Assembly: GCA_028871575.1 (NCBI GenBank)
Contig: JAGWMW010000007.1
Span: 1 to 39,703 of the forward strand
Length of the DNA: 39,703 bases
Direction of reading: 5' to 3'
Origin: Burkholderiales bacterium
GTDB lineage: Bacteria; Pseudomonadota; Gammaproteobacteria; Burkholderiales; Burkholderiaceae_C
Position numbers and translations under genes: made by a program. This document shows positions 15,207 to 18,837 of the stretch, piece by piece (the first letter of the stretch is position 1; each line of letters begins with the position of its first letter). The notes beneath the pieces are model-generated. The model was not told the origin of the DNA and did no database searches. It saw only the letters and a program-made list of their open reading frames with translations.

Positions 15207-17963
<2,757 letters not shown>

Positions 17964-17967
17964 GCGG

Positions 17968-17989
17968 GCTCATCCAGGGCAGGATGAGC
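17968..17989 (-). promoter_or_regulatory. Riboswitch expression platform: hairpin GCTCATCC-TGCCCT-GGATGAGC that would hide the SD-like GGATGAG
   Basis: Perfect 8-bp arms ending 4 nt before the metH ATG; the 5' arm shares GCTC with the aptamer P1 3' strand. Confidence 0.8.
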
Positions 17990-18051
17990 GCCGTTGGCTG
18001 CAAGCCGGGGTTCCGAGCCTGGCGGGGTGGCCCCGTCGCAGCGCCCCTCGG
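17985..18051 (-). ncRNA. S-adenosylhomocysteine (SAH) riboswitch aptamer
   Basis: Minus strand CCGAGGGGCGCTGCGACGGGGCCACCCCGCCAGGCTCGGAACCCCGGCTTGCAGCCAACGGCGCTCA reproduces the conserved SAH riboswitch core; directly upstream of metH. Confidence 0.93.
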
Positions 18052-18156
18052 AAACCGAGCCGGGATTCTATCGGCTGGGCCCGGGCCCGCCGGGGGCTGC
18101 GTTAGCATGGGTCGACAGCCCCACCCCGTCCACCAGATTGCACCGGAAGGCAGAGG

Positions 18157-18837
18157 ATGAGCCAGATCCATTTCGTCGGCGGCGAAAAGGGGGGCGTCGG
18201 CAAGTCGCTGCTGGCGCGCGTGCTGGCCCAGCACTTCATCGACCGCGGCCTGCCTTGGGTCGGCTTCGACACGGACCGGTCGCACGGCGCGCTGCTGCGC
18301 TTCTACGGCGAATACGCGACACCGATGTCGCTGGACGGTCACGACAGCCTGGACCGCGTCCTCGAGGCCGCGGCCGAAGTGCCGGGCCGGCGCGTGCTCG
18401 TCGACCTCGCGGCGCAGACGCAGGGCGCGCTGCTGCGCTGGCTCGATGAAGCCGGCATCCCGGCCCTGGCCGGCGAGCTGTCGATCGGCCTGAACTACTG
18501 GCATGTGATGGACGCAGGGCGCGACTCGGTCGACCTGCTGGCGCGCTGGCTCGACGGCGCGGGCTCGGCCTTGCCGCTCGTGCTGGTGCTCAACGAAGTG
18601 CGCGGCGAGGCCTTCGACCAACTGGCCGCCTCGGGTCTGCAGGAGCGCGCCCAGGCCCAGGGCGCGCGCGTGCTGCGCCTGCGCAAGCTGCCCGATGCGC
18701 TGCTGCAGCGGGTCGACGCCGCCGGCAGCAGCTTCTGGGCAGCCACCCACGCCGGCAGCCTGGGCATCCTGGACCGGCAGCGCCTGCGGGTCTGGCTGCA
18801 GCGCGCGGCCGCCGATCTCGAGGCCCTGGGCGTCTGA
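18157..18837 (+). CDS. ParA/MobD-like P-loop NTPase
   Basis: MSQIHFVGGEKGGVGKSLLARVLAQHFIDRGLPWVGFDTDRSHG (deviant Walker A). Confidence 0.8.
   Translation: MSQIHFVGGEKGGVGKSLLARVLAQHFIDRGLPWVGFDTDRSHGALLRFYGEYATPMSLDGHDSLDRVLEAAAEVPGRRVLVDLAAQTQGALLRWLDEAGIPALAGELSIGLNYWHVMDAGRDSVDLLARWLDGAGSALPLVLVLNEVRGEAFDQLAASGLQERAQAQGARVLRLRKLPDALLQRVDAAGSSFWAATHAGSLGILDRQRLRVWLQRAAADLEALGV

Follow-up and report, generated by a model that had tools for sequence, protein, structure and literature searches.

A probable SAH riboswitch that would switch on metH translation through a hairpin masking the ribosome-binding site in Burkholderiaceae

The S-adenosylhomocysteine (SAH) riboswitch class was reportedly described by Wang et al. 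in 2008. Riboswitches of the class increase ahcY expression in response to SAH, with an affinity quoted in the same source (PMC7057144), and MetH has been listed as a member of the SAH-riboswitch regulon in the Comamonadaceae (Leyn et al. 2014, PMC4239095); control of MetH by an SAH riboswitch in this group is already published in that work. In the SAM/SAH riboswitch (RF01727), binding of the ligand occludes the ribosome-binding site (PMC2864571, PMC10907184). The element examined here lies in a 39,703-nucleotide stretch of Burkholderiales DNA, called the window throughout, and is a genuine but ordinary member of the known class RF01057. Its interest is the comparative support that it and its relatives bring to how metH SAH riboswitches likely control translation in Burkholderiaceae, the related leaders serving as natural compensatory variants of the hairpin that forms the expression platform.

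The preliminary description of this locus, made from the sequence, had placed a complete SAH aptamer on the minus strand upstream of metH and named a cmscan comparison with RF01057 as the way to check it. That comparison, run against Rfam, returned a match of 60.1 bits (E 8.6e-9) covering model positions 1-78 of 78, 23 bits higher than the curated gathering cut-off of 37 bits. RF01057 was the sole Rfam family to reach gathering level in the 39.7-kb window; RF01727 gave no match there at its gathering threshold. The match lies 15 nt 5' of the metH start codon and so has the SAM-cycle gene context of the class. The P1 and P2 helices and the conserved core GAGG.GCGNTGC...CCAGGCTCGG...AACGGCGCTC are present, with a deviation from the related cores located at one core position. 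The 5' core and GCGCTC on the 3' side can form six base pairs, one of them G-U, and this helix, predicted by complementarity, is what we take from knowledge of the class to be the pseudoknot. The G-U wobble noticed earlier is real, but it belongs to the GGGCGC/GCGCTC pseudoknot and not to P1, which is TTCCGAG/CTCGGAA. The interval first given, 17968-18051, picks out the right element but leaves out the first 4 nt of the Rfam match and ends short of the ATG (Table 1).

Table 1. Coordinates of the metH leader features in the window
Feature	Position	Strand	Basis
metH (metH2 half), B12-dependent methionine synthase without homocysteine domain, 918 aa	15207..17963	-	TIGR02082, Pfam
SAH riboswitch aptamer, RF01057 full model	17979..18055	-	cmscan 60.1 bits, E 8.6e-9
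Whole feature, as better delimited	18055..17963	-	aptamer through ATG
P1 5' strand TTCCGAG, partner 18011-18017	18047..18053	-	Rfam structure line
P1 3' strand CTCGGAA	18011..18017	-	Rfam structure line
Predicted pseudoknot 5' strand GGGCGC, G replacing otherwise constant A (G-U wobble)	18041..18046	-	Rfam match, comparison of cores
P2 stem-loop CGGGG-CCA-CCCCG, strands 18035-18031/18027-18023	18023..18035	-	Rfam match, coordinates
Small 4-bp stem-loop GGCT-TGC-AGCC, between P1 and pseudoknot 3' strand	17996..18006	-	sequence, folding
Predicted pseudoknot 3' strand GCGCTC	17986..17991	-	conserved in Rfam match
Anti-pseudoknot hairpin GCTCATCC-TGCCCT-GGATGAGC (expression platform)	17968..17989	-	z -4.4; conserved and covarying in metH leaders
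SD-like GGATGAG, in hairpin 3' arm	17969..17975	-	position ahead of ATG; weak anti-SD match
-10-like TAGAAT, probable promoter, 11 nt ahead of P1 5' end	18065..18070	-	near-constant position in related metH loci

The product of the gene downstream matches TIGR02082 with 1154 bits, starting at profile position 323, and carries the Pfam domains Pterin_bind, B12-binding_2, B12-binding, and Met_synt_B12 (folate, B12, and reactivation); of a methionine synthase split in two, the gene encodes the C-terminal half. Its nearest named relatives, at 86-87% identity, come from a Rubrivivax-like metagenome bin and a Rubrivivax sp. bin, which makes a member of the Burkholderiaceae the most likely host. The assembly holds one gene for the homocysteine domain (the metH1 half), on a separate contig (C228) at a locus where no SAH element could be detected; the riboswitch here sits on the metH2 half. 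Just upstream of metH1, a 79-bp unit is repeated in tandem in 2.6 copies (positions 4-208 of locus L141), and a sequence similar to it occurs on the opposite strand at the far end of the same locus. In Paraburkholderia, Burkholderia, Cupriavidus, and Pandoraea (for example L181, L189, L200, and L213), a pattern search ahead of metH2 found no SAH core, and the gene immediately 5' of metH2 there is the one for the homocysteine domain. In the window, the metH leader shares its intergenic region with a divergent gene (18157-18837, plus strand), whose product is a CbiA/ParA-like nucleotide-binding protein and shows a weak TraL-like match. A TAGAAT- or TAAAAT-like element stands about 11-12 nt 5' of P1 in nearly all related metH leaders; a consensus scan found no full sigma-70 promoter at the window locus. 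The position of this element suggests that the transcript starts near the aptamer, with a leader of only about 95 nt.

The 8-bp hairpin GCTCATCC-TGCCCT-GGATGAGC has the sequence originally reported, with its 5' arm at 17989-17982, its loop at 17981-17976, and its 3' arm at 17975-17968, ahead of the ATG at 17963. For the segment 17992-17964 the computed folding energy is -18.0 kcal/mol (z -4.4), a stability that no shuffle out of 200 attained. Taken whole, the leader folds with no exceptional stability (z -1.0), and we dropped whole-leader folding as evidence; the minimum-free-energy fold of a longer stretch lacked the aptamer helices. The hairpin takes four bases of the pseudoknot 3' strand (17989-17986), or five if extra outer pairs form, in agreement with the earlier claim that hairpin and aptamer are mutually exclusive. 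In folding calculations its 3' arm is fully paired in the free leader and partly open when the aptamer helices are imposed and the pseudoknot strand is blocked. The SD-like GGATGAG is in this arm ahead of the ATG, as had been noted, but it is weak, pairing at -3.8 kcal/mol with a canonical anti-SD tail, whereas relatives often have AGGTGAG, which reaches -8.4; the canonical tail was assumed, the genome's own 16S tail not having been found by pattern in the incomplete assembly.

Comparison with related leaders carries the argument further. Among the genomes sampled, 196 of 200 from the family and 59 of 60 from the genus carry the RF01057 element, and all 140 related elements fetched stand directly ahead of metH (59) or ahcY (81). 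Of 58 metH leaders, 35 have a stem of 6 bp or longer anchored on bases of the pseudoknot strand, against about 5 expected from shuffles, and 13 have one of 8 bp or longer on the same bases, against 0.6. When the set was enlarged with named genomes to 98 distinct leaders and their downstream sequences were exchanged, the 68 stems of at least 6 bp fell to 47 on average, with 56 as the highest count over 1000 exchanges, and with the leaders bearing the common arm GCTCACC removed the figures were 29 against a mean of 14.8 and a maximum of 24; these leaders are related by descent, and the exchange counts are not to be read as probabilities. Across the 98 leaders, pair 6 of the hairpin is found as C-G, T-A, G-C, and A-T. 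The commonest form, GCTCACCTG...CAGGTGAG followed by the ATG, has a better Shine-Dalgarno sequence than the window's. The platform had been called unusually compact, a description that does not hold among its relatives: the overlap lies 26 nt from the ATG in the window, the median in the 58 metH leaders is 29 nt, and 31 of the 58 are at 30 nt or less. Family membership, the overlap of the two folds, and the conservation and covariation of the hairpin are established. Longer leaders precede metH in Pelomonas, Roseateles, Albitalea, and Mitsuaria (L144, L146, L148, and L149), where a GCGGCC-like segment after the GGTGAG arm could pair with GGCCGC near the start codon, and these platforms may have a second step.

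Because the hairpin is conserved and covarying and overlaps the aptamer, a translational ON switch is supported, and the core of the preliminary reading, an anti-pseudoknot platform on metH, stands, with its direction taken from the class. We consider it very probable that this element is an SAH riboswitch that switches on metH translation through a hairpin masking the ribosome-binding site. SAH as the ligand, and the ON direction, we infer by analogy with the known class, and by the same analogy the window RNA is predicted to bind SAH with discrimination against SAM. Without SAH, the GCGCTC of the pseudoknot 3' strand would start the 8-bp hairpin and bury GGATGAG, keeping metH translation low. 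SAH build-up would stabilize the pseudoknot, which would claim the four to five shared bases so that the hairpin could not form; the ribosome-binding site would then be exposed and MetH made, regenerating methionine from the homocysteine that SAH breakdown yields. Such regulation is otherwise as expected: as SAH builds up, the enzyme that uses its homocysteine product would increase.

One rival reading concerns the wobble of this particular copy. The G at an otherwise constant pseudoknot position was seen in the window copy alone when it was compared with the metH and ahcY cores located in relatives (the remaining cores have A, a few rows excepted where the pattern landed on the wrong place). 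When the variant core was sought by pattern across the genus, the matches were scattered, and the window's own was the only one to coincide with an RF01057 place among those listed. The change from A-U to G-U weakens the pseudoknot helix by about 0.9 kcal/mol relative to the consensus. A weakened copy, genuine as an aptamer but with a G-U pair and a strong hairpin that together keep metH mostly OFF at physiological SAH, would account for these observations, as would an error at that base, the source being an incomplete, fragmented metagenome assembly. Against both, a G-U pair can still form in the pseudoknot, every other core position fits, and the score clears the RF01057 cut-off by its wide margin despite the wobble; we regard this explanation as unlikely.

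The hairpin itself might act otherwise than by masking the ribosome-binding site. It is strong and G+C-rich, as a terminator or part of one would be, but no T-run follows it (CCCGCATG), no terminator-like site was found, and in most relatives its 3' arm abuts the start codon; a terminator platform was rejected on the first two grounds, and we give transcriptional control of this kind hardly any credence, while Rho-dependent effects coupled to translation may remain compatible with the data. By calculation the hairpin also exceeds the isolated pseudoknot helix in stability, and switching therefore requires ligand energy or co-transcriptional timing. The same stability would suit a constitutive translational damper or an RNA-stability element that overlaps the pseudoknot strand by chance; the 5' arm nevertheless begins on that strand in most metH leaders, even where the arm sequences are quite different, and does so in ahcY leaders as well, which makes an incidental overlap very unlikely.

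The ahcY leaders of the family, including that of the same genome (L001, contig C136), share a hairpin with GGTGAG. Some 90 nt separate their start codon from the pseudoknot strand, giving a platform longer than that of metH, and the segment right after the pseudoknot strand (CCTGCACG) is complementary to a distal segment (CGTGCAGG) as well. The helix between the proximal and distal segments averages 7.33 with own partners and 6.11 with exchanged ones, and 0 of 200 exchanges reached the observed value; the two segments vary together as CCTGTACG/CGTACAGG in L063, CCCCCTCG/CGAGGGGG in L084, and CCGCATGTGT/GCACATGCGG in L026. In many ahcY leaders the distal segment runs on into the complement of the Shine-Dalgarno region GGAGCC, a possible pairing that does not stand apart from its exchange control (5 of 200 exchanges reached the observed value), and the stretch from the distal segment to the ATG is more structured than its shuffles (mean z -2.07 in 69 leaders). 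Conservation or covariation thus supports the predicted anti-aptamer hairpin and distal helix, and complementarity and folding suggest that the distal segment could mask the ahcY ribosome-binding site.

These features would fit a relay, in which the proximal segment pairs either with the nearby anti-aptamer GGTGAG arm or with the distal segment; SAH would free the proximal segment, which would then capture the distal one and release the ribosome-binding site. A possible arrangement of this type was noted in the ahcY leader of the same genome and in about 70 related ahcY loci. We therefore suggest, tentatively and with somewhat more doubt than conviction, that Burkholderiaceae use one SAH aptamer with two platforms, a single hairpin masking the ribosome-binding site on metH and a relay on ahcY. 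No description of the ahcY relay was found in the literature searched; the primary papers on the class lie outside that search, and the novelty of the relay is uncertain.

Set beside the RF01057 members ahead of metH and ahcY in the beta-proteobacteria (PMC4239095), the window element is alike in its full-length match to the model and its SAM-cycle gene context, and, as in the other metH leaders compared, the 3' strand of its pseudoknot also supplies bases to a hairpin covering the ribosome-binding site. It differs from its relatives in the G-U wobble of the pseudoknot, which is absent from the other related cores located, and in an SD-like sequence weaker than in most. The SAM/SAH riboswitch is likewise a pseudoknotted RNA that is able to bind SAH and acts on translation, but it has another fold and lies upstream of metK in Rhodobacterales.
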